The position numbers and the translations under genes are program-made. Below, one piece after another: positions 4,881 to 36,700 of a DNA stretch of 64,000 nucleotides. The notes beneath the pieces are model-generated. The model was not told the origin of the DNA, ran no database searches, and was given only the letters and a program-made list of their open reading frames with translations. Origin of the DNA: Planctomycetaceae bacterium (lineage in GTDB: Bacteria > Planctomycetota > Planctomycetia > Planctomycetales > Planctomycetaceae); the NCBI GenBank assembly GCA_024742875.1, contig JANSXP010000035.1, forward strand, positions 1-64,000, in the 5' to 3' direction. Positions within the stretch are counted from its first letter, which is position 1, and each line of letters starts with the position of its first letter.

Positions 4881-6866
4881 ATGACATCCGCAAGGTCCAT
4901 CAAGGCAGGTTCTGCTTTCGTCGAGTTCTTCCTCGACGACGGGCGGCTGCAGCGTGGCCTGAAAACCGTGGAACGGCGGATCTCACGTTTCGGTGCAAGC
5001 ATTCGATCGAACGGGGCGGCCTTGCTGGGGTTGGGCGGCGTTCTGGCCGTTCCATTTCTGGCAGGTATCAAGGCAGCCAGTGATCTTGAAGAGACGATGA
5101 ACAAGTTCAACGTTGTCTTCGGGGAAAACGCAGAGGCCGTGAAGCAATGGGGCGACAACTTCGCCAAAGAGGTCGGCAGATCGAAACGTCAGATCGCCGA
5201 TTTTCTCGCGGGAACTCAGGACCTGTTCATTCCGATCGGCTTTGACGCTTCTGAGGCCGAACAGTACAGCAAGCAGCTCACTCAACTGGCCGTCGACGTT
5301 GCGAGCTTTAACAACAAGGCGGATGCCGATGTTCTTCGCGACTTCCACGCTGCCCTCACCGGCGGCGGCGAGACAGTCAAGAAATACGGTGTGATTCTGA
5401 ACGTTGCCACAACGAACCAGGAACTCCTTGCCCAGGGGATCGATCCCAAGTCCGCGACGAATCAGCAGAAGGTCTTCGCGAGAATGCAGGTCCTGCTGAA
5501 AGGCACGACGGCCGCCCAGGGCGATGCGATCCGTTCAAGCGGCTCCTATGCCAACCAGATGAAGCGGCTTGCGGGGGTGACGGAGGACGCGGCCGGCGCA
5601 ATCGGGAACATTCTCCTTCCAGTGATCACCCCGGTTGTCTCGAAGATCGCAGACGTTGCCAGGTGGGTTGAGGTTGCAGTTGATGCAAATAAGGAACTTG
5701 TCTCGGCTATCTTCAATGTAGTGTCCGGCGTGCTTGCCACTGGCGTGGCGATGGTCGCGCTTGGAACGATCATCCAAGTCGTGACTTTCGGAATTGGAGG
5801 TCTCGGCAAAGCCATGTCGCTCGTCGTGAAGGGCCTCCTTCTCGTTAAGGCTGCGATCACGTCAACGGTCGGATTGATGACAGCATTGCTGTCTCCCGCA
5901 GGACTACTGATAGGGGCGTTCGCAGGCATAACGGCCTATGCGATCTCTGCATCCGGGGCAGTTGATTCACTGTCGAACTTCCTCGGCGGCCGTTTGAGCC
6001 GGACATGGAAGACAATTGTTGCTCTCATTGGGTCTGGCAATCTGAAAGCAGCTGGGAACCTCGCAATGGCAGGGCTGAAGGCCGTGTTTTCGATCGGCTT
6101 GGCAGAGATTCAGGGTTTTTGGATTCGTTTCAAGGGAGAGTTGGCGGGAATTTTCCTGAGCCTTACCAGCACCCTCGAAAACGCATGGCTGGATTTCAGC
6201 GGTGTGTTCGTCGACTCAATGATCTCGGCCGCTGCTCGGGTGAAGTCAGTGTTTCAGTCGGCGTCCGGGGAGATCTCTAAGTACATCGCTGCGGCAATCG
6301 CCAAAGCCAGCGGCCAGGACGTTGGTGAGGTTCTACAGACACTGCAGGAAGATCAGGACCGCAACAGAGTTGATCCGATTGGTGACGCAGAGCGGGAGAT
6401 CGCGGAGCGTCAACAGCAACGCCAGAGGAGGAAAGAGCGTAGTGAGATCGAAACGCAGGAAGCCATAGATCTCGTTCGGGAGCAGACAGAACGACGGGCG
6501 GAAGCCGCTGGGGAAGAAGTCCAGAAGGCTGCCGCTGAATTTGACAACGCCCAGAACGAAGCGGAGGGGATTCTCGCGAACAACGGTGAGAATGACCCGG
6601 AGTCGATATCCAATTCTATCGCAAGATTGCTCAGAGAGTTCAATGAGAACCGAGAAGCGGCGGCCGCTGAAGTCAACAGGGCCAACACGGGCGTCGATGT
6701 ACGCAGTAGTCAGGCAAGCGAAACTGTCGCGATTGCGTTATCCGGTTCGGCAGGACGAACTGCCCAGGACGCCATTGATGACCAGACTAACGCCCTGCTG
6801 GGTGAGCTTGAGGACGTGAACGGTAATCTCAAGAAGGCCCCAGTTGTCAAGGAGTCAACAACATGA
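4881..6866 (+). CDS. Phage tail tape measure protein
   Basis: A 661-residue protein with the usual tape measure layout. There is an amphipathic N-terminus, then a TP901-core-like region (about residues 60-260: SDLEETMNKFNVVFGENAEA, FLAGTQDLF, KRLAGVTEDAAGAIGNILLP), several hydrophobic segments (residues 270-420) and a charged coiled-coil C-terminal part (residues 490-640) rich in Glu, Arg and Gln. Tape measures set tail length and are ejected with the DNA; 661 residues is short for the class and implies a tail of roughly 100 nm by the usual 0.15 nm per residue. The start follows the chaperone stop by one base, and the end overlaps the next gene (ATGA). Confidence 0.88.
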   Translation: MTSARSIKAGSAFVEFFLDDGRLQRGLKTVERRISRFGASIRSNGAALLGLGGVLAVPFLAGIKAASDLEETMNKFNVVFGENAEAVKQWGDNFAKEVGRSKRQIADFLAGTQDLFIPIGFDASEAEQYSKQLTQLAVDVASFNNKADADVLRDFHAALTGGGETVKKYGVILNVATTNQELLAQGIDPKSATNQQKVFARMQVLLKGTTAAQGDAIRSSGSYANQMKRLAGVTEDAAGAIGNILLPVITPVVSKIADVARWVEVAVDANKELVSAIFNVVSGVLATGVAMVALGTIIQVVTFGIGGLGKAMSLVVKGLLLVKAAITSTVGLMTALLSPAGLLIGAFAGITAYAISASGAVDSLSNFLGGRLSRTWKTIVALIGSGNLKAAGNLAMAGLKAVFSIGLAEIQGFWIRFKGELAGIFLSLTSTLENAWLDFSGVFVDSMISAAARVKSVFQSASGEISKYIAAAIAKASGQDVGEVLQTLQEDQDRNRVDPIGDAEREIAERQQQRQRRKERSEIETQEAIDLVREQTERRAEAAGEEVQKAAAEFDNAQNEAEGILANNGENDPESISNSIARLLREFNENREAAAAEVNRANTGVDVRSSQASETVAIALSGSAGRTAQDAIDDQTNALLGELEDVNGNLKKAPVVKESTT

Positions 6867-7837
6867 GCGACCTCATTGCGCCCATTGACGATTACCCGAT
6901 CAAGATCGAGCGAATCGAACAGGATCGAACCGTTGACGACTTGGCGTCCACTGATGACGTCACGCAGACGCGGAAGTGGAACATCTTCACGAATGACACA
7001 ACGACCGAACTCACGGTCTTTGATGTCATGGAACAAGTTCCGATCTTTCGACCGGGCGTGACGATTGGAAGGGCACCCCTTCAGCGGCGACTCACCGACA
7101 TGCGATTGCGTGAAACTGAGTCGAATTACATCTACACCCTCGAATGTGACTTCTCGCTGTTCGAATACAAGACGCCTTTCCTCGTCCCAATTGACTGGAC
7201 ATGGGAAAGCACCATTCTGGAGATACCGGCCTACGTCGACAACAAAGGGAGGCCGATCGTCACCACAGCTGGCGAGCCGATCTCTGGCATGTTTCGCCGA
7301 ATCAAGTGTTGGATTATCAGCGGAACAAGGAATGTCCCTGGCGTTCCAGACTGGTTCCGGGAGTACGGCGTCAGCGTGAACAAAGACTCGCCACGCCTGG
7401 ACGGTGTGCGGTTCAAACCGAAAGAGCTGCAGCTGCAAAAGATGAGCCTTGGGGCGTGGCAAACGCAGACGATTAACGGCAAGGAGTACCGTTATCGCCC
7501 CCTCTCGTTTGAGTTCTGGTTCAACCCACTGACGTGGACAACAGAAGTCTTCAATCTCGGCTACAACGAATTGATCGTGCGGCCATTTGAAGAGGTCGAA
7601 GTGTCTGCTTCCGGAAAGGAAACAGTCAAGAAGGGCTTTCGGTCGTACCAGGTCAGAGCGACGGACGGGCAGGGGAACGAAACAAGACAGAGAGTCTTCC
7701 TGAACAAGCTCGGTCAGCGACCGCGGCAGATCATCAATCGTGAAGTCATCATCAAAGAACCCCTTGAGCCCAAAGACATCATCACTCTGAAGTTCGACCT
7801 AGACGAAGAACTCCCATACGCGAGGTTACTGAAATAA
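6863..7837 (+). CDS. Phage distal tail/baseplate-region protein, unknown family
   Basis: A 324-residue soluble protein translationally coupled to the tape measure gene (ATGA) and to the following large gene (TAATG). It is beta-rich and aromatic, for example YRYRPLSFEFWFNPLTWTTE near residues 215-235, with no signal peptide or membrane segment. By position directly after the tape measure it should be a distal tail or baseplate hub component. I recognise no named motif, so the functional call is contextual. Confidence 0.6.
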   Translation: MSDLIAPIDDYPIKIERIEQDRTVDDLASTDDVTQTRKWNIFTNDTTTELTVFDVMEQVPIFRPGVTIGRAPLQRRLTDMRLRETESNYIYTLECDFSLFEYKTPFLVPIDWTWESTILEIPAYVDNKGRPIVTTAGEPISGMFRRIKCWIISGTRNVPGVPDWFREYGVSVNKDSPRLDGVRFKPKELQLQKMSLGAWQTQTINGKEYRYRPLSFEFWFNPLTWTTEVFNLGYNELIVRPFEEVEVSASGKETVKKGFRSYQVRATDGQGNETRQRVFLNKLGQRPRQIINREVIIKEPLEPKDIITLKFDLDEELPYARLLK

Positions 7838-10635
7838 TGGCTATCAATCGATTTCGCGGCGACGCTACTCCGAGTGCAAAAGTCCTGAGGCTGCTCCGAC
7901 CGAACAACGTGTCTCAGGGCGTCTTCACGGTCGTCAGTGTTGGCAACAAGCGGCTTGAATTCGTCGGTTGGGATGCTGACGAGATCGCCGCCGGCCTGAA
8001 CAGTTCCGGGTTTCCCGAGTTGGCAAACGTCAACGCAACGGTGACGGGGCTTGATGTCAGTTTGACTGGCGGGGAGAACGAAGACTTCGACGTTCAGGTC
8101 TCAATCTCTCCGACTGTGGAAGTGGAATTCAATCAGGGGTCTCCGCCCGTCAATCAGCAGACCCGACTGAACTTCGACGCCGCGGACGGCGGAACCTTCA
8201 CGCTGACCTGCAACAACGAGACTACGGCAGCGATCACGCTCAAGACATCAGGAGCATTCAACACGGGCGGCGTTCAATCCGCGATTGAGGCCCTTACGTC
8301 CTTCGCGTCTGGCGATGTTTCCGTGTTCGTGGATTCTGGCGACATCGTCCTGGAATGGATAGGCAATTACGCAGCCCAACCCGTCGCCGTAAAGATGGAC
8401 GCCACGGGCCTGAACAACGGCGGCCAGGTCGTCTTTGTCGAAACTCAGTCCGCTCGTCCCGCCACGCACGATATCTACTGGCTCGGGATCGACGGGGACT
8501 ACGTCTTCGACATCACCGACGGCTCGACTCCGCTGGAAGTAAAAAGCAACGAATCCGAAGCCGATCTGTCCGCCCGATTTTCGGCGGCGTGGGGCGGTCA
8601 GGTTGATGTCTACATTCACGTCACGGGTGACAAGCTGACTCAGCGGAATGCTTTCCGCCGAATCATGTACATCGACATGGTGGGATTCCCCGGGGCAACA
8701 ACAAACCTGTCGGTCTCTGGGATCGAACCGAACGATTCAAACCCGCCACAGGTCGCGATCAGCAAAGTGATCTCGTCCGCTGACGCCAGTCCGCACGAGG
8801 TGATTCTGCTCGATCAGCGAGAGGGGCCAGTCGCCGCCTCGCTGGATGGTGCGGTCGTCGACTTCTCAACAGCGAGCGACCTGATCACTTCTCTGAACGA
8901 GGCAGTCCAGTTCGGCGAGTGGACGGTCTGGCGTGGACCAACTGGATTCGACGGCGGAACAGAACTCGGTGGGGGCAATATTCAGACGGATGAGCTTTGC
9001 CTCATCTTCTGGTTCGACGATGGGCTGAGACGAGCGAACACCTACCCGACGACGTATCAACTCCCCGTTGACGATGGCGGCGGAACCGATTTCGACTTCT
9101 CACGCTTCGAATTCCACGAAGACAATCTCGGAACGATGCGAGTCCTGCAGCACGGCGGTTCCACGAACGCAGCTCGGCCAGCGGTTCACGAGTTCTACCT
9201 CCAGCCGAACACGGCCGGCAACACGCTGACGGGAAGCTACAAACTCTCATTTGCCGAGGGCATCACGTCCGCCCTGACAGAATCGAGCAATGCGGCGGCC
9301 GTTCAGTCTGCGATCAACACAGCAACGGGGATCACCGTCGCTGTGAGCGGGGCCGGAACAGCCGCATCGCCGTTTTCCATCTCCTACACGGGAGACACGT
9401 CGTCGCGAAACTTGCCGTCTGCCGTTGAGACGAGCTTCACGGGCGATGGGAATGGCGTTGTGTCCGCCGATGCGGCCGCCTTCGCGGGTGTCTCAGCATC
9501 GGCGACGATTCGCGTGTCCCTGACCGCTGACGACGGGACGTTTGATCTGATTTCGGGCAACGAAGGACCCGTCTCGTTCAACTGGAACGAAGACGGGGCG
9601 TCTTTCCTGACGAAGCTGCAGAACTTCCCGTCGCTGGCCACTCCTGGCGACGTGGTGGTCAACTACAACGCCGCTTCTCGCGAGTATCTGGTCAATTACA
9701 CGGCAGGTCTCGCTCTGCAGGAGGTCGATCAGCTGCTCCTGCAACGCAATCAGACCAGCAGCGTCACGCAAAGCCAGGCCACTCGGGAGATCGACGACTT
9801 TCCGAGTGGCCCAGGGAACTGGGCTGACGCGGTCAACTGGTCTCTCGGTCGTTTGCCCGAAACAGGAGACGAGATCCTTCTCGACTTCAGCGACGAGTCG
9901 ATCACGTACGGTCTTCGGCAGTTCGTTCAGGTCGCAATCGACACCACAGACAACACTCTGACGGCCGCCGGTGGCCACGATCTGCAGAACGGGCAGAAGG
10001 TTCAGTTCCTGTTCGGAGACGCGGCCCCCACAGGCGTCTCGGCCGGCACCGACTACTTCGTGATCAACTCCGATCGAACCGACGGGATCTTCCAGGTCTC
10101 TGCGACGGAAGGCGGGGCAGCGGTCAACATCACGGCCGCCGGAACCGGGCCTCACTTCTGCGGCGTGATCGCCGGTGATGTGACGATCCCAGCATCGTTC
10201 GATCAGGGCATCGGCCTGGAACGGGACAACTCTGAGGGCTTCGAAGAATACCGACAGCGATTTCTGGCCATCGGGATCGCCGCGACCGGCGTGATCGAAG
10301 TCGGGCGGGGCGACGGTGTTGGCTCGGGGCTCATCCGGATCGATCCCGGAAACAGTGCCGGCGAAGTCGTGGTCTATGAGACAGGAGCTTCGGAAGTCGA
10401 TGGCAAGCCTGCCTGTGTGCTGAGCTGCCTGAGCGACAATCTTCGTCTTCGCGTTCATTCCGGGGATGTCGGGATCGCTGTCTATGACGACGAAGTCGCG
10501 AAGCTCGGTTCGTTCAACTGTCTCGCGGGATCGCTGTTCGTCGGTTCTGTCACGGTCGTGAACAACGCCATCGCCGGCCGCGACACTCTGACCTCACAGC
10601 GGATGTCTGTGAACGGCCTGGTGAGGATCACGTAA
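7837..10635 (+). CDS. Large beta-rich phage tail tip/virion protein (932 aa)
   Basis: A 932-residue protein with almost continuous beta-strand character and low Cys/Lys content. Several internal segments look like diverged copies of one module: a strand pair such as TFTLTCNNETTAAITLKT, a helix of the AVQSAI type, then a G-D-V/I-strand turn. Examples are residues 110-190, 455-530 and 550-630. A central part carries FWFDDGLRRANTYPTTYQLP, and the C-terminal third ends in a right-handed repeat-like stretch. Position after the tape measure suggests a tip, baseplate or fibre protein. No enzymatic motif is visible. Confidence 0.6.
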   Translation: MAINRFRGDATPSAKVLRLLRPNNVSQGVFTVVSVGNKRLEFVGWDADEIAAGLNSSGFPELANVNATVTGLDVSLTGGENEDFDVQVSISPTVEVEFNQGSPPVNQQTRLNFDAADGGTFTLTCNNETTAAITLKTSGAFNTGGVQSAIEALTSFASGDVSVFVDSGDIVLEWIGNYAAQPVAVKMDATGLNNGGQVVFVETQSARPATHDIYWLGIDGDYVFDITDGSTPLEVKSNESEADLSARFSAAWGGQVDVYIHVTGDKLTQRNAFRRIMYIDMVGFPGATTNLSVSGIEPNDSNPPQVAISKVISSADASPHEVILLDQREGPVAASLDGAVVDFSTASDLITSLNEAVQFGEWTVWRGPTGFDGGTELGGGNIQTDELCLIFWFDDGLRRANTYPTTYQLPVDDGGGTDFDFSRFEFHEDNLGTMRVLQHGGSTNAARPAVHEFYLQPNTAGNTLTGSYKLSFAEGITSALTESSNAAAVQSAINTATGITVAVSGAGTAASPFSISYTGDTSSRNLPSAVETSFTGDGNGVVSADAAAFAGVSASATIRVSLTADDGTFDLISGNEGPVSFNWNEDGASFLTKLQNFPSLATPGDVVVNYNAASREYLVNYTAGLALQEVDQLLLQRNQTSSVTQSQATREIDDFPSGPGNWADAVNWSLGRLPETGDEILLDFSDESITYGLRQFVQVAIDTTDNTLTAAGGHDLQNGQKVQFLFGDAAPTGVSAGTDYFVINSDRTDGIFQVSATEGGAAVNITAAGTGPHFCGVIAGDVTIPASFDQGIGLERDNSEGFEEYRQRFLAIGIAATGVIEVGRGDGVGSGLIRIDPGNSAGEVVVYETGASEVDGKPACVLSCLSDNLRLRVHSGDVGIAVYDDEVAKLGSFNCLAGSLFVGSVTVVNNAIAGRDTLTSQRMSVNGLVRIT

Positions 10636-10636
10636 G

Positions 10637-11551
10637 ATGGTTGACGGCTTTTTCATATCTCCCCGCGATGAACCGGTTTACCGAGAGGTGATCCAGGAGC
10701 GTCGGTCCTTGCGACAGGCGGACTTCGAAGACGAACCGCAGATCAACGGCATCCGCGGTGCCATGATCGTCGATCCGCCGCTCGGCTGGCAGAAGGGCAA
10801 ATGTGCAGTCCTTCGCGAGGACGCCGAGTTTTCGTTCTCGTACGAGGTGTCGATTAACGGCTATCCGGGTTTTGGAAAGCTTGACGTTCTTCGCGGCCGC
10901 ATCGTGAAAGCAGGGCAGGAACGAAACCCGGACTTCTCGGGGGAGTTCACGTTTCGCCGCGACGCTGACAATTCGGCCATCATTCAGGCGTTGCCGAAAT
11001 ACTGGCGGACGCGGGTGCAGGTCACCGGCGGCAAGATGCGAGTCGATGGCAAACGCGTTGCGAATCCCGACTTCAACGATCCTGAAACCGATCCAGAGTT
11101 CATATTCGAAGACACGATGGTCAACACGGGCCGGTGGTTCATCGCGTTCAACGAAGCGCCAGAGGAGTTCGTGTTTGCCAAAACGGAAGGTCTGACACAG
11201 GATGAAATCATTTCCCTGCTCGGATTCAACGACGATGGGAGCATCCCCGACCATCCAGTCGACGAGAACGGATTCCCGTACAACCTCGATGAGCGGCTGA
11301 CGGTTCGAGTTCGTCAGGTCCCGTTCGTCGTTTCATCCCTGACGACTGAATTTGGGACGCTTGTCGACACGTCGCAGCCGTCGCCGATCGCCGTGGGGGC
11401 ACTGGCCTACATTTCTCAGGTTCCGGGCATCGGCAATCAGCTGCTGAGCGTCGAACCACGTGTCTATCAGGACCTTGGCGGCATCTTCACGCCTGCAGTC
11501 TTCGCGGCGGCCACCGATATTGTGGCGTCGCTGGAAGAGGAATCAGGCTGA
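10637..11551 (+). CDS. Phage tail-region structural protein, unknown
   Basis: A 304-residue soluble protein beginning MVDGFFISPRDEPVYREVIQ, one base after the previous stop. It alternates beta segments with charged turns (EFTFRRDADNSAIIQALPKY). It overlaps the next gene by one base (TGATG). There is no signal peptide or membrane helix. The tight spacing within a block of virion genes supports a structural role; no family is recognised. Confidence 0.55.
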   Translation: MVDGFFISPRDEPVYREVIQERRSLRQADFEDEPQINGIRGAMIVDPPLGWQKGKCAVLREDAEFSFSYEVSINGYPGFGKLDVLRGRIVKAGQERNPDFSGEFTFRRDADNSAIIQALPKYWRTRVQVTGGKMRVDGKRVANPDFNDPETDPEFIFEDTMVNTGRWFIAFNEAPEEFVFAKTEGLTQDEIISLLGFNDDGSIPDHPVDENGFPYNLDERLTVRVRQVPFVVSSLTTEFGTLVDTSQPSPIAVGALAYISQVPGIGNQLLSVEPRVYQDLGGIFTPAVFAAATDIVASLEEESG

Positions 11552-12285
11552 TGATGGGCTCACCATGGAATCCGTTCTTCGACCAGGTCATCCCCGGCAC
11601 GTCAAAGCGATACGACGGCCGGCTTGTCGACAACGTCGATCCGAAGCAATCGGGTGGTTTCAACGCCATCCGTCTGCCGCAGAATGTCGCAGTCCTGGAC
11701 AACCTTGGGACTGTGCAGGCCATTCTGAACCGGACGTATGAGATGAGCGGGCCGCCGGTGCCGATCGAGTCCGAGGTGGTGACCTACGGGGCCCTGTACA
11801 ACACGGGACTCGCCAGTTCGATCCGGAGAACGGCGTTCTGCTGGTGGCACACGCCGTCAGTCTCATTCAATGACCGATATCCGCGAGTGCTCTACAAGAG
11901 TGACCCCGACTTTCGCGGCTACTGCTACTTCCTCGGTGCTGGCTTCGCTCATACCGGCATCAACTTCCCGCAGGAAGCGATTCAGTATCCGCCGCAGGAT
12001 TACACGGCTGTGTGGTCGTTGTGGCTCACTGATGACATTCCAGAGGCCGAGGGCGGATCTCCAGAGTTCTGGGCGGACGTTCCCGGGACGACACTCGTGG
12101 AACCTGGCGAACTTGGTGAGACCTATCCGCTGTGGGTGAATGAAGGGGGATTCGATGGTGATGTCCCCGCCGGCTCACGCATTGTGGCCGGTCTGGATCT
12201 GAACCGTCGATCGAAGCTGATCAACGTCACGACGAGTATTGAAAACCTGCCGATCTACGTGGAACCGTGGTATCGGTCAAACTGA
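11551..12285 (+). CDS. Phage tail-region structural protein, unknown
   Basis: A 244-residue aromatic-rich protein (MMGSPWNPFFDQVIPGTSKR). Many Trp, Tyr and Phe residues (CYFLGAGFAHTGINFP, YTAVWSLWLTDDIPEAEGG) suggest a compact beta fold such as a receptor-binding or carbohydrate-contacting domain, but this is inference. It closes the run of overlapping virion genes; the next gene starts 12 bases downstream and looks like a holin. Confidence 0.55.
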   Translation: MMGSPWNPFFDQVIPGTSKRYDGRLVDNVDPKQSGGFNAIRLPQNVAVLDNLGTVQAILNRTYEMSGPPVPIESEVVTYGALYNTGLASSIRRTAFCWWHTPSVSFNDRYPRVLYKSDPDFRGYCYFLGAGFAHTGINFPQEAIQYPPQDYTAVWSLWLTDDIPEAEGGSPEFWADVPGTTLVEPGELGETYPLWVNEGGFDGDVPAGSRIVAGLDLNRRSKLINVTTSIENLPIYVEPWYRSN

Positions 12286-12297
12286 GGAACTGAAGCG

Positions 12298-12573
12298 ATG
12301 TATCTGATGGGGGGTGTTACGAGCGGCTTTCTGTTGGCGTATTTCGTTAGTTCTGAACAACTCAATTCATGGGGCGAATTGGGAGCGGCAGCAATTCTGG
12401 GGCTCTTGTGCGTTGGGTTCGGCGTCCTGCACTGGAAAACAATGGCAGCGATGGCAAAAGCGGTCGAACGACTCGCGAAATCTAACGAGAAGACGGCGGC
12501 TGACTTCCGTGAGGACCACAGAAGGCTGATGGAGCAACTTGTCGAGGGGCTCATTTCTGAACAAGGAGAATGA
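12298..12573 (+). CDS. Small holin-like membrane protein (91 aa)
   Basis: The first 55 residues form two hydrophobic segments: MYLMGGVTSGFLLAYFVS, and LGAAAILGLLCVGFGVLHW separated from it by a short polar turn. A charged, helical cytoplasmic-type tail follows (AKAVERLAKSNEKTAADFRE). Size, two transmembrane segments, charged C-terminus and position after the virion genes fit a class II holin or a related lysis or superinfection protein. No endolysin is evident next to it, so the lysis role is uncertain. Confidence 0.5.
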   Translation: MYLMGGVTSGFLLAYFVSSEQLNSWGELGAAAILGLLCVGFGVLHWKTMAAMAKAVERLAKSNEKTAADFREDHRRLMEQLVEGLISEQGE

Positions 12574-12613
12574 TCTGGTGCAAAAACTCACTTGCAAATT
12601 CCGACTTTTTTGT

Positions 12614-12643
12614 TTGACTTCCACCGCCACACCTGCCTAATAT
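12614..12643 (+). promoter_or_regulatory. Strong sigma70-type promoter in the prophage
   Basis: TTGACT at 12614-12619 and TAATAT at 12638-12643 are separated by 18 bases, a close match to the housekeeping consensus; the predicted start is near 12650. It opens a stretch without a convincing gene but rich in inverted repeats. Confidence 0.6.
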
Positions 12644-12649
12644 CAGGAT

Positions 12650-13235
12650 CGAGAGCCCGCAATACTCTCAACCCGCCGGAGCGACCGCTTACCGCTCCGA
12701 CTCTTCAACGACTGATTGCACGGATACAGATGACGTCGCGGAAAGGTTCCGGACGTCAGACGGACTGGGGCTGATGTTTCCATCCGAATAGATCTACGTT
12801 CTTCTGAGCCAGGAACGTCAAGATTTAGACGGAGTGAACATGCGCAAGGTTTGTAAGAGCGTCCCACCTACCTGTAAATGGGCGTCTCTTCATAAGTCGT
12901 TTTGGATTGTCTCACCATGATCGAGCTTGCTTCGCTCAAATCATGTCTCCAACAGAACCGAGCATCCAAAACCCGTGCGCGCTACGTCCCTAGCGAGCCC
13001 CAGTCCCGAGTCAAGTCGCCCACCCTGACCTGTTGGAGACAGGGTGGCTCCGGAAACCCGGAGAGACTGGAGGGTTGAGTGCGGGACTGCTGGGAGATAA
13101 GCGCCCTGGCCGCAATATGTTGGTTGCCTGGAAATGCAGACCGATCGCTTCTTCCACGGATTTAACAAGCTGAGCTACCTGCCTCGACTTCCCTCATCTA
13201 TCTCCGACACCTTCTTCTTCTTTTTGAGGTGTCAA
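12650..13235 (+). ncRNA. Candidate large structured RNA or long regulatory leader
   Basis: About 590 bases between the holin-like gene and the gene at 13240 hold no convincing protein but a series of mostly nested inverted repeats. Paired segments are: 12677-12683/12693-12699 (7 bp); 12731-12743/12747-12758 (12 bp, one bulge) enclosed by 12721-12725/12782-12786; 12796-12801/12813-12818; 12899-12907/12964-12972 (9 bp) enclosing 12916-12926/12934-12945; 12980-12984/12991-12995; 13001-13008/13082-13089 (8 bp) enclosing 13020-13027/13040-13047 (8 bp) and the abutting 13048-13053/13058-13063; 13099-13103/13146-13150; and 13122-13127/13136-13142. Segment 12667-12674 is also complementary to 13072-13079, a possible pseudoknot. 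A good promoter lies directly upstream. I cannot assign it to a known family; short stems arise by chance, and it is the dense nested set that is suggestive. Confidence 0.5.
13206..13233 (+). promoter_or_regulatory. Hairpin sequestering the ribosome binding site of the next gene
   Basis: GACACCT (13206-13212) pairs with AGGTGTC (13227-13233) around a pyrimidine-rich loop. The 3' arm contains the AGG expected to serve as Shine-Dalgarno, 10 bases before ATG 13240, so the folded form would block translation. Confidence 0.45.
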
Positions 13236-13239
13236 ATCA

Positions 13240-13713
13240 ATGTCGAAACCAACATGGAGCCAATGGTTCTACCCCATCGCAGAAAAATTGGCGGCGGAAG
13301 TTGCCGCGAAGTTGTTGTATTTGCTCTTGGTCGCTGCCGTAACTGCACTGTTGTGGCTGGCAGCAACCTACCTCTGGCCTTCAAGTCCAGACTTTCTCCA
13401 TAAGACATGGCAGTCCGACGATGGTGCGGTCGTCATGCGCGGAGAGACGTTGAGCGCGATTGAAATTGTCACTCGGGGCGGCGTGGCTCTCGAGCTTAAT
13501 GTGACTGAAGAAACCACCAACCCCAGCCGTTACTCTGGCGAACTGAAGTGTGTGGTCCACGGCGGCACAATCGGTCAGTTGGAGCTGGAGCTGGAGCCTC
13601 ACGGACAGATTCGAGCGCGGACTGTTTGGACAACCAGCCAAGATTATGAGTTGGATGAACGGCTTCGCGTAAACTGGCCGGATGCCCCACAGGTGACGAC
13701 AGGCAAGACATAG
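13240..13713 (+). CDS. Prophage single-pass membrane protein, unknown
   Basis: A 157-residue protein. An amphipathic N-terminal helix precedes a strong transmembrane segment (about residues 23-47: LLYLLLVAAVTALLWLAATY), followed by about 110 residues of beta-rich soluble domain (GVALELNVTEETTNPSRYSG, QLELELEPHGQIRART). Few Lys in the soluble part and the N-in anchor suggest a periplasmic-side domain. It has its own perfect intrinsic terminator 33 bases downstream, and its start lies under a hairpin at the end of a long structured leader, so it may be regulated post-transcriptionally. Candidate roles are lysis control (spanin-like) or superinfection exclusion; neither is shown by sequence. Confidence 0.6.
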   Translation: MSKPTWSQWFYPIAEKLAAEVAAKLLYLLLVAAVTALLWLAATYLWPSSPDFLHKTWQSDDGAVVMRGETLSAIEIVTRGGVALELNVTEETTNPSRYSGELKCVVHGGTIGQLELELEPHGQIRARTVWTTSQDYELDERLRVNWPDAPQVTTGKT

Positions 13714-13745
13714 CCACAGCAGACGGACACACCAGTATCTACAGA

Positions 13746-13774
13746 CCGCTGAGATTGATCTCAGCGGTTTTTTT
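13746..13774 (+). terminator. Intrinsic terminator
   Basis: A perfect 9-bp stem (13746-13754 with 13759-13767), 4-base loop TTGA, followed by seven T residues. It ends the transcript of the membrane protein gene at 13240. Confidence 0.9.
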
Positions 13775-13868
13775 GTGCTTTCGCAGGCACCAGACCAAGT
13801 GTCCACGCCCGAACACGGTTGATCGTCGCGTCGCTGACCAATGCCAACCAAGACTCTCGGCCCACGCC

Positions 13869-14048
13869 ATGCACGTGGTGATGCTGGCTCGTGATCCAGA
13901 CGACCTGCTTGCCAACGTGAAGCAGTTCATCGAGGAAGATCCGGAGACCGCTCAGGAAGTGCTGTACGCGGCGTTGGCGGCACTCGCGGTTTCCGTGGAG
14001 GCGTACGCGGAGCGGAAGGCTCGGTGGGAGAAGCGAGAGGGGAATTGA
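13869..14048 (+). CDS. Small acidic helical prophage protein (59 aa)
   Basis: From ATG 13869 the product is 59 residues, with a helical, acidic body (ARDPDDLLANVKQFIEEDPE, then ALAALAVSVEAYAERKARWE). The frame is open farther upstream, but that part overlaps the terminator at 13746-13774 and is compositionally poor, so I use the internal start; a Met at 13881 is also possible. No family is recognised. It is co-directional with the flanking prophage genes. Confidence 0.45.
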   Translation: MHVVMLARDPDDLLANVKQFIEEDPETAQEVLYAALAALAVSVEAYAERKARWEKREGN

Positions 14049-14260
14049 GGGCCAGTTGTTGCGAAGTCAGCCAGCTTGGGCGTCGTGTACTGGATGAGTC
14101 AGATGGAAATGGTCAGCAAGAGCGACCGAGCGATAACCTAATTCGTTCAAGAATCTGAGCTCACTGAATTGCATAGCCCTTACGTGCGTAGGAAGCTAAC
14201 GATTCCCTCTCTCTCTCTTCTTTTCCGCAGAAAGACTCACGCAAGCTCGCAGAGGTTGAC

Positions 14261-15247
14261 ATGGAATCCGAGAAGCTCATCAGAGATGTTGATAGTGCAT
14301 CATTAGGAACTACGCAAACCAGCGTAGGAGTGAACCACAGCGCAGACGAAGGCATTTGGGAAACTCAAACATCGTTCACAGAAGGCGATAGCGAACGGTC
14401 TCTCGCCGTACCGGAACTCGACTGGAGCCCACAGAACATCATCCCAACCGGATCTGTGTTCCAGACTGAAGTAAACAGTCATGTAGAAGTCGCACAATCT
14501 CCTGTAACAATCGAGTCGCTGGCGGACCTGGTCGAATTCAGTAGGTTGTTGCACGGGACGCATAGGTCGCTAGATGTGTGGTGGAGAGGGCACTCCAAAG
14601 CAACTTATACGTTGACTCCAACAGTGTTTCGATCAGCGAGTTATCGGGAATATGAGTCCACCATGCTGCAGCGTTTTCGAAGCTATGCTCATACCCGGGA
14701 CTTGAGTCTACCGAATAACATCAGTAAAGAGCACTTGTTGTTCGTCGCGCAACATCACGGCCTTCCCACAAGGCTGCTTGACTGGACGTATTCGGCTCAG
14801 GTTGCGCTGTTCTTTGCAGCGAGGAGTAACCCAGATTGTGACGGAAGGGTCTACGGCATGTACCCATTCGGCCTCAACCAGAAGACGATCGGAAAGCCTG
14901 TTCTACCGGCTGCGTTGTCTAAAGATGTAGTTGGGTTGACGGACGCCGCATTTAATCATGGGGCAAGCGACGAACGAGTAATTGCATTGAGTAGCTCAGA
15001 ATCCAATCGACGAATGCTGGCTCAACAAAGCCACTTCACGATCCATGGCAGCAATTCAAAGTGCCTCGAGAAGTCGTGCAGTGAGACCGACAACTTTCTC
15101 TCATCTGTTGTGATACGCAGCAAAGCCAAAGCGGGACTGCTTGAAGAATTGGAATCGATGGGGATATCGGAGCGCACCCTGTTTCCAGACCTCGATCACC
15201 TTGCAAATTTCATCAAGAACGCACGATTCCAGCACTTAGGCAACTAA
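14261..15247 (+). CDS. FRG-domain protein, prophage cargo
   Basis: A 328-residue protein with a clear FRG domain from about residue 85 to the end. Motifs in order are WWRGHSKATYTLTPTVFR (the Arg-Gly signature), LLFVAQHHGLPTRLLDWT, QVALFFA, RRMLAQQSHFTIHG, and LFPDLDHLANFI near the C-terminus. The biochemical activity of FRG domains is not well established. They recur in mobile elements and in variable islands, often beside defence genes. The first 80 residues form a polar extension with no recognised motif. It is the last gene before the attachment site, stands apart from the virion operon, and its base composition looks less GC-rich than the neighbours, all typical of a cargo (moron) gene. 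Confidence 0.8.
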   Translation: MESEKLIRDVDSASLGTTQTSVGVNHSADEGIWETQTSFTEGDSERSLAVPELDWSPQNIIPTGSVFQTEVNSHVEVAQSPVTIESLADLVEFSRLLHGTHRSLDVWWRGHSKATYTLTPTVFRSASYREYESTMLQRFRSYAHTRDLSLPNNISKEHLLFVAQHHGLPTRLLDWTYSAQVALFFAARSNPDCDGRVYGMYPFGLNQKTIGKPVLPAALSKDVVGLTDAAFNHGASDERVIALSSSESNRRMLAQQSHFTIHGSNSKCLEKSCSETDNFLSSVVIRSKAKAGLLEELESMGISERTLFPDLDHLANFIKNARFQHLGN

Positions 15248-15298: not shown

Positions 15299-15466
15299 AA
15301 TGGTGATCTGCGATGGTTGTCAATACGCCCTGAGGGTTGCCAAAAAATTGCCGCACTTTGTGCCGCACTTGGACGACAAATCCGACTATTTTCGTCGTTC
15401 AGATTCTCAGAAAACCCCGAAAAAGCTGGGGTTTTGGGCGTTTCTGAGTTTATCGCCCATGCCTGA
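15299..15466 (+). pseudogene. Possible 3' remnant of a phage integrase gene
   Basis: A 55-codon open stretch with no start codon support, between a stop at 15296-15298 and a TGA at 15464-15466 that lies inside the tRNA-like attachment core. It reads GCQKIAALCAALGRQIRLFS and then a charged tail. Position and character resemble the variable C-terminal end of a tyrosine recombinase that reads into its att site, but no catalytic motif is present, so the call is weak. It may simply be non-coding. Confidence 0.25.
15411..15435 (+). terminator. Intrinsic terminator near prophage end
   Basis: AAAACCCC (15411-15418) pairs with GGGGTTTT (15428-15435), a perfect 8-bp A/T-flanked stem that could work in both directions. 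It lies downstream of the FRG gene. Confidence 0.6.
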
Positions 15467-28794: not shown

Positions 28795-29226
<432 letters not shown>

Positions 29227-33796: not shown

Positions 33797-36700
33797 ATGT
33801 CCACCGGATTCCCACACGATGAACACAGCAAAATAGGCAGGATAGGTGTACTTTGCGCCGCCACTGCCTCAATCAGTTACTGTTTGGTGGTGATTTGGTA
33901 TGTCGCCACGTTTCCAGACGTGGGTGTGCGCTGTTTGCTACCCAACACAGCGAACGAGACAGACCTTGAGATCGTGCAGTTTGTGTTTCCAGGCGAGGAC
34001 TGCCTGTCCACTGAACCCTCCCCCGGTGACCGACTGATTGCCACTGGCCGGGTGCCGGCGGGAAACCTAATTCGCTTCGTCCACAGCCTCGCCGGCTTAC
34101 GATCGGCCGAGATTCCCACCGGCGGACGAATGAATCCGGGATCCGAGCCGGCCGAGAAATCCGAGTCGCTGGTCCCCGCTCTCGTGGAGATTGAGTCCAG
34201 TCCGGAAACGAACAGTCCGTCTGGTCGCATGGTGGAACTGAAGCTGCGACAACCGGACTCCATCGACCCCAATCTGGTGGTTCGCACTTATGTGCCTGTC
34301 CGTCCATTGGTGTCATCCGATTTTCTGCTGACCATCTTCTGGTTTCTGTGCCAGCTGGGGATCTTTGTGGTCGGCGTCGCCGCCTGGTGGCAGCGTCCCA
34401 ACGACAAGGTCATTCGTATCTTCTGCCTGATGTGCTGTGCGTCGATGCCCGCATTTGTGGGAGGGTTCAACTGGTGGATGCTGGTGTCCAGCCCATTGCT
34501 GAACCTGCCCTTCATTTTTGCCGCCTGCCTGCTGCCGGCCGTGACACTCCACTTTTTCTCCTGCTTTCCTCGGGAGAGTGTCTTCCTGCAGCAGCGTCGC
34601 GGCTGGAGCCTGGCTCTGATCTACGCGCCCCTGCTGGCGATGGCCGTTCTGGTGGGCTTTGTGTATTGGGCCGCGTATTCACTCACTGGTGTTGGCGTCT
34701 CCCCTGGCCAGTATTCTCTGATGCAGAAGCTCGTGGCGGTTGCTGACAGTATCACGGAACCAGGTCAGATTGTGTTCGCCAGTGACGCTGTCAGCGCCTA
34801 CCTGCTGTACGTCCTGCGACTGCTCGTGTTTTCCGCCATCGGACTGAGCAGCGTGTATTTTGTGCTGACCGTACTGTCACTGTCGGTCAGCCTGCTGCGA
34901 ACCCAGAATCCCGTTGAACGCCGTCAGGCTTCCGGCATTCTGATCGCCTCTTTGATCTCGACGATTCCCATTCTCTACACGTTGTATCTGGCCTTCTATC
35001 AGAAGACGGAGTTTGCTCTCGGGCGGGCTCAGCGTCCCATGTTCATCGCCAGCGGTCTGTTTATGGCGGCCTACGCACACGGCATGCTGAAACACCGACT
35101 GATTCTGGCCGACGACATCCTGAAGCGGGGTCGTCAGTACTCTCTGATTTCCACGCTGCTGACCGTAACCTGTTCTGCTGTCCTTGGCGTGGGTGTCCTG
35201 CTGACGAGGGTGTATGGTCTGCCGCAGGATTCGTCACTGCTGCTGCACCTGACCATCTTCCTTGTGGTGGTCATCGCGATTGCTTTCGTCCTGTGGGCAC
35301 GGGATCGTATTCAGTCCGTCGTTGACCAGCGGTTCTTTACGGAGAAGTATCAGCTGGACCGCACGCTGAAACAGCTGAATCAGGCCAGTGGGTATCTGTC
35401 GGACCCCTCTTCACTGGCACAGATCACACTGGGCTCTTGCCGCGACGTGCTGGATGCCTCAACGGCTGCCATGTTTGTGCGGGATGGATCCGGCGTCCTG
35501 CGGCTGATCGGCGCTGACGAAACGTCTACGGCTCCCGCTACACTGACTCTGGATTTTCCCGATGGCGTGGTGCCGACCGAACAGGTGGTTCTGCGACTGC
35601 CATCACTGAGCCGCAGCGATATGCCGTTTGTGCAGCAGCTGCTGCGTGACCTGCACGCGGAACTGATCTGCTTTCTGCGTGGCGATCAGGGCGTGGACGG
35701 TGTGATTGCGCTGGGCGCTCGCGCGAATGAGGTGGCCTATTCTCCGGAGGATATTGCCTTCCTGCAGGCCATGGGACAGATGACCGTCCTGGCGCTGCAC
35801 AGTTCCAAAGCCAATCAGAACCTGGCCCGCCTGGACCAGGAACTGAAGGTCAAAGTGGACCGTATTGCGGAACAGCAGCGACAACTGTCTATGCTGCGGG
35901 CCGAACTGACCAACCTGCAGGACAATGCGGGAGAAGTGGCGCGGCAGGAAACAACAGACGGTCTGGACCGGGGGGAAATTCGCGGCAACAGTCGGGCCAT
36001 TCTGGACGTGCTGGAGATCGTTCGCAAAGCGGCCGCCAGCACGGCCACAGTTCTCATTCGTGGTGAAAGTGGAACGGGCAAGGAACTGCTGGCCCGCACC
36101 GTACATCGCAACAGTGATCGCCGGGAAAAGCCGCTGGTCTCGGTCAACTGCGCAGCGCTGGCCCCCTCTTTGCTGGAAAGCGAACTGTTCGGCCACACGC
36201 GCGGCGCATTCACGGGGGCCGACTCTGACAAAGTGGGTCGCTTTCAGGCAGCTGACGGCGGCACTCTGTTTCTGGATGAGGTGGGCGACATCTCACTGGA
36301 AACACAGGTCAAACTGCTGCGAGTACTTCAGGAACGCTGTTTTGAGCCGGTCGGCACCAGCCAGACGGTGCATGTGGATGTGCGGCTGATCGCCGCCACC
36401 AACCGAGACCTGGAGAAGATGATCGCTCGGGGAGAATTTCGTGAAGACCTGTACTACCGACTGAACGTTGTCAGTGTCACACTGCCGCCGCTGCGGGAAC
36501 GACGCGAAGACCTGATTGAGCTGGTATTCTTTTTCCTGAATCGTGCCGTTCAGAAGACGGACAAACGAATCAGCCAGATCGAGCCGGACGCGCTGGCACT
36601 TATCGAGCGTCACGACTGGCCGGGCAACATCCGTGAACTGGAAAACGTGGTGGAACGTGCGGTGGTTCTCGCCGACGGTGACACGATCACCCGCAAGGAT

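Follow-up and report, generated by a model that had tools for sequence, protein, structure and literature searches.

A candidate large structured RNA beside phage tail genes in a probable planctomycete genome, with a predicted promoter at the boundary of its fold

Introduction

GOLLD and ROOL are RNAs of prophages and phages whose function is unknown and which often lie near tRNA islands; according to PMC12286853, profiles of both and of OLE are contained in Rfam. GOLLD is a multi-junction RNA with kissing-loop contacts and many members above 800 nt, and the ROOL RNA studied has 659 nt, a complex fold with pseudoknots and no known protein partner (PMC12286853). In both, kissing loops join molecules or lock the fold, and a homo-oligomeric nanocage is a further trait of ROOL. 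OLE RNA has about 600 nt and occurs in Gram-positive extremophiles; it is not known to be a phage RNA. In the packaging RNA (pRNA) of phage phi29, loops of different molecules pair with one another; this RNA is much smaller than the element of about 440 nt described here.

The element shares setting and style with GOLLD and ROOL, and not sequence, size or tRNAs. Like GOLLD it would be a large multi-junction RNA, with the phage or prophage location given here by a tape-measure protein, and it differs in its length of about 440 nt, the lack of a tRNA in 64 kb and the lack of an Rfam match. The likeness to ROOL lies in the location and in a complex fold with a pseudoknot, predicted in this case from one sequence; the differences are the length (about 440 against 659 nt) and again tRNAs and Rfam match. 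An initial annotation of this DNA had called the size and setting similar to GOLLD and ROOL while seeing no sequence basis for equating them: the setting holds, the size and the tRNAs do not, and the caution against equating proved sound on all three counts (no Rfam match, no tRNAs, shorter length). OLE is a large ornate RNA that functions as RNA; the element would resemble it in this, and gave no match to the Rfam profile. Compared with phi29 pRNA, it follows tail genes, with no terminase or portal among 19 ORFs scanned, and the window gave no Rfam match to a pRNA, assuming that Rfam includes this family. The traits of ornate RNAs found here are structure beyond chance, long-range helices and a pseudoknot, all predicted from one sequence. 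Among the matches listed in a search of open papers on large prophage RNAs, none describes this element in its title or the opening of its abstract.

Genomic context

The window, meaning the whole stretch of 64,000 nucleotides analysed, is the first 64 kb of a 72.7-kb contig from a genome of 8.2 Mb. Phage tail genes occupy its first part, and a PHROGs scan of 19 ORFs placed a tape-measure protein at 4881-6866 and named no terminase or portal. The tail-gene region is presumably a prophage, and the count of 0 tRNAs in the 64-kb window applies to a prophage cut at the contig start. Relatives of the tape-measure protein were found at 60 loci in IMG/VR viral contigs, at 2 loci in genome_contigs (both Planctomycetota) and in 32 of the 170 family genomes, its own among them. 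The two genome_contigs loci make a planctomycete host probable. The 932-aa tail protein had relatives in 45 of 397 class genomes, own included, and no relative in IMG/VR. The 244-aa protein upstream had no relative in IMG/VR or in the 170 family genomes beyond its own. For the tail-region proteins of 324, 932, 304 and 244 aa (6863-12285, +), neither PHROGs nor Pfam returned a match at E<=0.001.

The gap of interest, 12574-13239 (666 bases), is flanked by complete ORFs at 12298-12573 (91 aa) and downstream by the following gene:

13240..13713, + strand, 157-aa protein with an N-terminal helix followed by predicted beta strands

The 157-aa protein had no relatives in IMG/VR, phages, genome_contigs or the 170 family genomes beyond its own. 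Its one weak Pfam match, below the cutoff, was DUF4131 (E 0.0025), and its structure model was poor (pLDDT 55). Further along and close to the RNA unit, an FRG-domain protein (14261-15247, +) was identified by Pfam; it matches the PADLOC candidate defence family PDC-S15 with E 3e-46. A small ORF at 13863-14048 (+, 61 aa) showed coding-like codon use (log-odds 0.24, GC3 0.77) and no firm family match in Pfam.

Coding signal in the gap

The stretch 12651-13239 (G+C 54%) contains 4-8 stops per frame in all six frames, and all six gave negative codon scores (-0.18 to -0.31), measured against a training set of nine tail-region genes which themselves scored +0.04 to +0.37. The overlapping ORFs 12592-12774 and 13134-13403 (+) and 12643-12867 and 12941-13168 (-) scored -0.20 to -0.28, and Pfam at E<=1 returned nothing for 12592-12774, 12643-12867 and 12941-13168. 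The description of the stretch as gene-free agrees with these stops, scores and Pfam results. The FRG-domain gene at 14261 also scored negative (-0.11), as did the ORF at 15300 (-0.18); since the former is a real gene by Pfam, the codon test is a weak guide here, and the lack of a clear coding signal in the gap is not decisive.

Folding statistics

The 589-nt stretch 12651-13239 folds with -224.5 kcal/mol (z -4.9, with 0 of 100 shuffles as low; z -4.7 in a repeat set). The core 12651-13095 has a minimum free energy (MFE) of -187.5 kcal/mol and z -6.7 against 200 dinucleotide-preserving shuffles, the lowest of which reached -165.0, a value somewhat favoured because the core bounds were picked after folding. 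The 144 nt between domain and gene (13096-13239) folded no better than shuffles (z +0.3), so the structure does not extend past roughly the first 440 bases. The structured stretch had been put at about 590 bases: structure beyond shuffles is present, and its extent shrinks to a domain of about 440.

The ensemble of the core is also well defined, with a diversity of 0.083 per nt against a shuffle mean of 0.247, below all 200 shuffles and below 59 of the 60 in a second set (1/60 as low). Against 289 segments of 445 bases across the 64 kb, the G+C-corrected core energy was the lowest, with a residual z of -2.97 (next-lowest background segment -2.43); one background segment, at 34981, had a less diverse ensemble than the core. 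A scan of 1-24000 in 200-nt segments ranked 12901 second lowest of 238. The bacterial class A RNase P RNA found by Rfam in the same window (28797-29221, -, 425 nt, 279.9 bits), a genuine RNA close to the core in length, served as a folding control; set against 60 shuffles in the same way, it gave z -3.6.

Only 6 of the 159 core pairs are G-U, compared with 13 of 139 in this RNase P RNA, and the reverse strand folds about equally (z -6.2, 131 pairs in common). Folding therefore proves neither which strand is used nor that the element acts as RNA. Support for a structured RNA comes from single-sequence statistics, which give good backing to the prediction of a large folded RNA among phage tail genes, with a promoter placed at its boundary. 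The reading first given to the locus stands in part: the fold (z -6.7) and the promoter placement agree with it, and two of its specific pairings do not.

Predicted structure of the domain

The features of the predicted fold, all on the + strand, are as follows.

12651..13091, +, structured RNA core, a closed multibranched domain (MFE and shuffles)
12652..12677 (12652-12661, 12667-12674, 12676-12677), +, P1 5' strand, closing helix in the predicted fold
13069..13091, +, P1 3' strand, closing helix in the predicted fold
12678-12698, +, hairpin A, inside P1 in the predicted fold
12699-12703/13008-13012, +, P2 (p 0.71)
inside P1, +, hairpin B, weak (p 0.54)
12731-12758, +, hairpin C, inside P1
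12762..12772, +, P3 5' strand, long-range helix (p 0.94-1.0)
12996..13006, +, P3 3' strand in the predicted fold
12774..12841, +, arm D, a long arm inside P3
12842-12849/12973-12980, +, P4, carrying arms E and F
12850..12896, +, hairpin arm E (mean p 0.82)
12899..12972, +, arm F, an outer stem, an inner hairpin (12916-12945) and then a 14-nt strand
12981-12994, +, hairpin G, inside P3
13014-13017/13065-13068, +, short stem after P2 (p 0.63), bearing H1 and H2
13020..13047, +, hairpin H1, 8-bp stem (p 0.99) and 12-nt loop
13048..13063, +, hairpin H2, directly abutting H1 (p 0.99)

The closing helix P1 consists of pieces of 10, 8 and 2 pairs. Its segments 12656-12661 and 12667-12674 had pairing probabilities of 0.98-1.0, in the longer transcript too, while the outermost pairs (12652-12655) were weaker, with a best p of 0.69 in the core and 0.25 with the tail, and failed in the read-through transcript 12298-13770. 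P3 is a perfect helix of 11 bp whose strands are separated by 223 nt, and it encloses arm D, hairpin G and P4, from which arms E and F extend. Probabilities of 0.94-1.0 persisted in the 1.47-kb read-through transcript (12298-13770) for the second piece of P1 (P1b), for P3 and for pairs one to eight of arm F.

Several of the pairings named in the initial annotation could be placed in this fold. A 9-bp stem at 12899-12972 enclosing a hairpin was recovered as the outer stem of arm F, with p 0.98-1.0 for its first eight pairs and 0.56 for the ninth. The pairing of 12667-12674 with 13072-13079, suggested as a pseudoknot, appears instead as the nested closing helix P1b (p 0.99-1.0). A multibranch unit had been drawn at 13001-13089; its two abutting hairpins (13020-13047 and 13048-13063) are present, and its 8-bp closing stem is negligible (probability <1e-7), the strands of that stem belonging to P3 and P1.

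Predicted crossing contact between the H1 loop and arm F

A repeat finder detected a perfect 12-nt inverted repeat, 12944-12955 and 13030-13041, which includes the two strands of the predicted contact.

12946..12955, +, crossing-contact strand 1, in arm F, complementary to 13030-13039
13030..13039, +, crossing-contact strand 2, in the H1 loop, ten Watson-Crick pairs with 12946-12955

The ten bases on each side sit in the arm F strand 12946-12959 and in the 12-nt H1 loop, and their pairing crosses the nested helices. The pairings of these strands in the MFE structure are short (3 and 2 pairs): the 14-nt strand of arm F, single if the crossing contact is assumed, forms a 3-bp hairpin with p 0.65, and the H1 loop has two internal pairs (13029-13030/13035-13036). 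A shuffle test considered only bases that lie outside helices of at least 4 pairs. No crossing run of Watson-Crick pairs in 400 shuffles was longer than 7, with 0/400 reaching 8 or more; with G-U allowed, 2/400 reached 10 or more crossing pairs. Opening the strands was estimated to cost 4.2 kcal/mol against a duplex of -15.0, with loop penalties left out. The H1 loop has an alternative partner at 12704-12710 (seven pairs including G-U). Owing to the steric limits of a ten-pair helix on a 12-nt loop, fewer pairs may form within one molecule; a contact in trans would be free of this limit.

Promoter, terminator and transcription unit

The signals found around the domain are listed below.

12614..12643, +, sigma-70-type promoter TTGACT-18-TAATAT, 9/12 consensus positions
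13206..13233, +, small hairpin over the likely ribosome-binding site, which is held by its 3' strand
13743..13770, +, intrinsic terminator-like site after the 157-aa gene

The predicted transcription start, at about 12649-12652, lies 6-8 nt after the promoter, at the edge of P1. The promoter had been described as near-consensus: the site exists (9/12) and its start meets the edge of the fold, and one promoter-like site was found in 12000-14300 where 0.9 would be expected by chance in 2.3 kb. Because about one such site in 2.3 kb is expected by chance, the match is weak taken alone, and its value is one of position, as the predicted start falls on the fold edge.

The scan of 12000-14300 found 13743-13770 as the only terminator-like site on the + strand and none directly behind the domain. 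With no terminator between domain and gene, the domain would be a leader, or it would be released by processing or through an unseen 3' end. The hairpin 13206-13233 lies in a 46-nt stretch of -10.4 kcal/mol (z -2.6) and is also present in the 589-nt MFE structure; it covers GAGGTG, 8 nt before the ATG of the 157-aa gene. Beside it, in the same structure, 12651-12654 at the very 5' end of the RNA are paired to 13201-13204.

Search for known families and relatives

Rfam gave no match in the element at gathering scores, and three implausible ones at E up to 10 with permissive filters; no GOLLD, ROOL, OLE, group I or group II intron, riboswitch or leader match was obtained. A resemblance to group I introns near 12704 was considered and dropped as it had no Rfam support. 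The Rfam search proposed for this locus, including GOLLD, ROOL and intron models, thus produced no match, and the nucleotide and covariance searches proposed with it produced no homologue. The best reading of the family searches is that the element, matching none of the RNA families searched, may be a new orphan "ornate" prophage RNA.

At the DNA level the element matched only itself in its own genome; among relatives (1/58) and in a phylum sample (1/294) the single match was in each case the own genome, and the phages and plasmids searched gave no match. A covariance model (R1) was built from the single sequence 12762-13006 and its MFE structure, covering 245 of about 440 nt; such a one-sequence model reaches near relatives only. 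Against 81 sources at E<=10, R1 matched the window alone. The genome samples were partial and overlapping (397 class, 170 family). Among the family genomes at E<=1, 5 of 170 matched, namely the own genome and four weak matches of 14.9-21.5 bits, which were judged to be chance because each skips at least 131 of the 245 model positions. Among the class genomes at E<=0.01, 2 of 397 matched, the own genome and the same 21.5-bit match (E 0.0015 per genome). Further loci gave nothing above 9.5 bits.

Exact-word scans of IMG/VR in four runs returned 14, 1, 10 and 0 stretches. The best extra similarity around shared words was an nhmmer E of 2.4, or E 0.07 over 118 nt, the latter match being three near-identical loci. 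In all 10 loci of the third run (10/10) the word sits inside an open stretch of 241-962 codons; these loci were rejected as homologues, since words in long open stretches look like coding sequence sharing them by chance. Homologues of the element were therefore found neither by DNA search, nor by the covariance model in the 397 class and 170 family genomes, nor by exact word.

Interpretation and alternative explanations

The interpretation draws on quantities computed here, namely structure statistics, extra complementarity, the lack of a clear coding signal and the placement of promoter and terminator. It is quite probable that the element is a folded RNA with a function, of a kind not described before. 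That it is a free, trans-acting structured non-coding RNA made from its own promoter has slightly better than an even chance.

The main competitor, a real but lesser prospect, is a very long structured 5' leader that would control the 157-aa gene in cis, its fold or a partner bound to it acting on translation through the hairpin at the ribosome-binding site. The arrangement suits it: domain and gene share a strand, a terminator was found just after the gene and none before it, the hairpin 13206-13233 hides GAGGTG, and the 5' end of the RNA pairs beside that hairpin in the 589-nt structure. The 144 nt linking domain and gene are no more stably folded than shuffles, however, the ribosome-binding site itself has no pairing partner within the domain in the MFE structure, and Rfam gave no matching riboswitch or leader. 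About 440 nt is also large for a cis-regulatory leader element. A reading at the DNA level, in which errors of replication or recombination left nested inverted repeats, or a folded single-stranded DNA site exists, with no RNA function, is improbable. It would account for the few G-U pairs and the similar folding of both strands, and long palindromes do occur in regions of class relatives; the three strongest palindromes are each mostly one long hairpin, unlike the multibranched fold here, a promoter is directed into the element, and a crossing contact of ten pairs would not be expected from palindrome formation.

Two further explanations fare worse. Size and multi-junction shape would be compatible with a diverged or degenerate intron or another known ribozyme, and gene decay can leave gaps; yet Rfam offered no more than the three implausible matches noted above, the element lies between complete ORFs (12298-12573 and 13240-13713) and not within one, as an intron interrupting a gene would, and z -6.7 would not be expected of a decayed gene, which makes this origin very improbable. 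Equally hard to credit is chance folding in G+C-rich DNA, in spite of the 54% G+C, the good folding of other gaps and the caution about individual stems voiced when the locus was annotated, because shuffle and genomic backgrounds, the contact shuffles included, speak against it.

For the trans-acting RNA the following course may be envisaged. Transcription would start at about 12651 from the element's own promoter, near the end of the tail-gene region, and the RNA would fold into a closed domain, some 440 nt long, with P1, the nested P2, P3 and P4, and nine hairpin arms, to which the H1 loop and the arm F strand may add a contact of at most ten pairs. This contact might lock the fold within one molecule or join molecules, as the kissing loops of GOLLD and ROOL do. 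Transcription probably continues across the 157-aa gene as far as the terminator at 13770, and with such read-through, promoter, RNA and gene would make up a single, independent cargo ('moron'-like) unit. Most likely the RNA would act in trans as a folded particle; transcription, processing, any assembly and the function of this putative orphan ornate RNA are all inferences from the sequence. A more specific version is doubtful: a prophage RNA class of its own, shorter than GOLLD and ROOL, which the lysogen would express from the RNA's own promoter beside a candidate defence gene and which would multimerize through up to ten pairs formed by the H1 loop of one molecule with arm F of another.

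If the reading as a prophage RNA is true, a compact ornate-style RNA of 440 nt would offer a tractable case for the role of such RNAs in prophages: its structural model is definite, and mutation could disrupt its one predicted tertiary contact. GOLLD and ROOL themselves are without known function (PMC12286853). The phenomenon of ornate RNAs would then probably extend to planctomycete phages.

Structured gaps in related regions

Regions around some relatives of tail-region proteins were retrieved (20, then 8 regions). A cruder folding scan covered 111 ORF-poor gaps of at least 220 nt from 83 sources, own window included and N-containing gaps excluded, each cut to 450 nt and compared with 20 shuffles. 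The own gap, cut from 12555, had z -2.6 and ranked only 25 of 111; the cut at 450 nt stops P1 from closing. This rank indicates that gaps fold well generally, so that the case for the element rests on the whole domain.

The three strongest gaps, L050 9596-9992, L042 3507-4089 and L040 1115-1459, are long near-perfect palindromes (z -10.8 to -12.9); all from genomes within the class, they look by eye like inverted-repeat mobile elements. In the fourth strongest, L035 (z -8.0), long hairpins follow one another in a row. Eight further gaps (ranks 5-11 and 16) inspected by eye showed no architecture that could be equated with the domain described here, and some of them look like missed genes. In a second set of nine gaps selected by position or size, the best was L033 12209-12622 with z -3.4, a 414-nt ORF-poor gap of a related prophage region, the z applying to the strand folded, and the gap in L151 gave z +0.6. 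In L154 8844-9428, a gap rich in A+T that lies downstream from a tape-measure relative, repeated short words resembling TGACA and CAATGAC were seen by eye.
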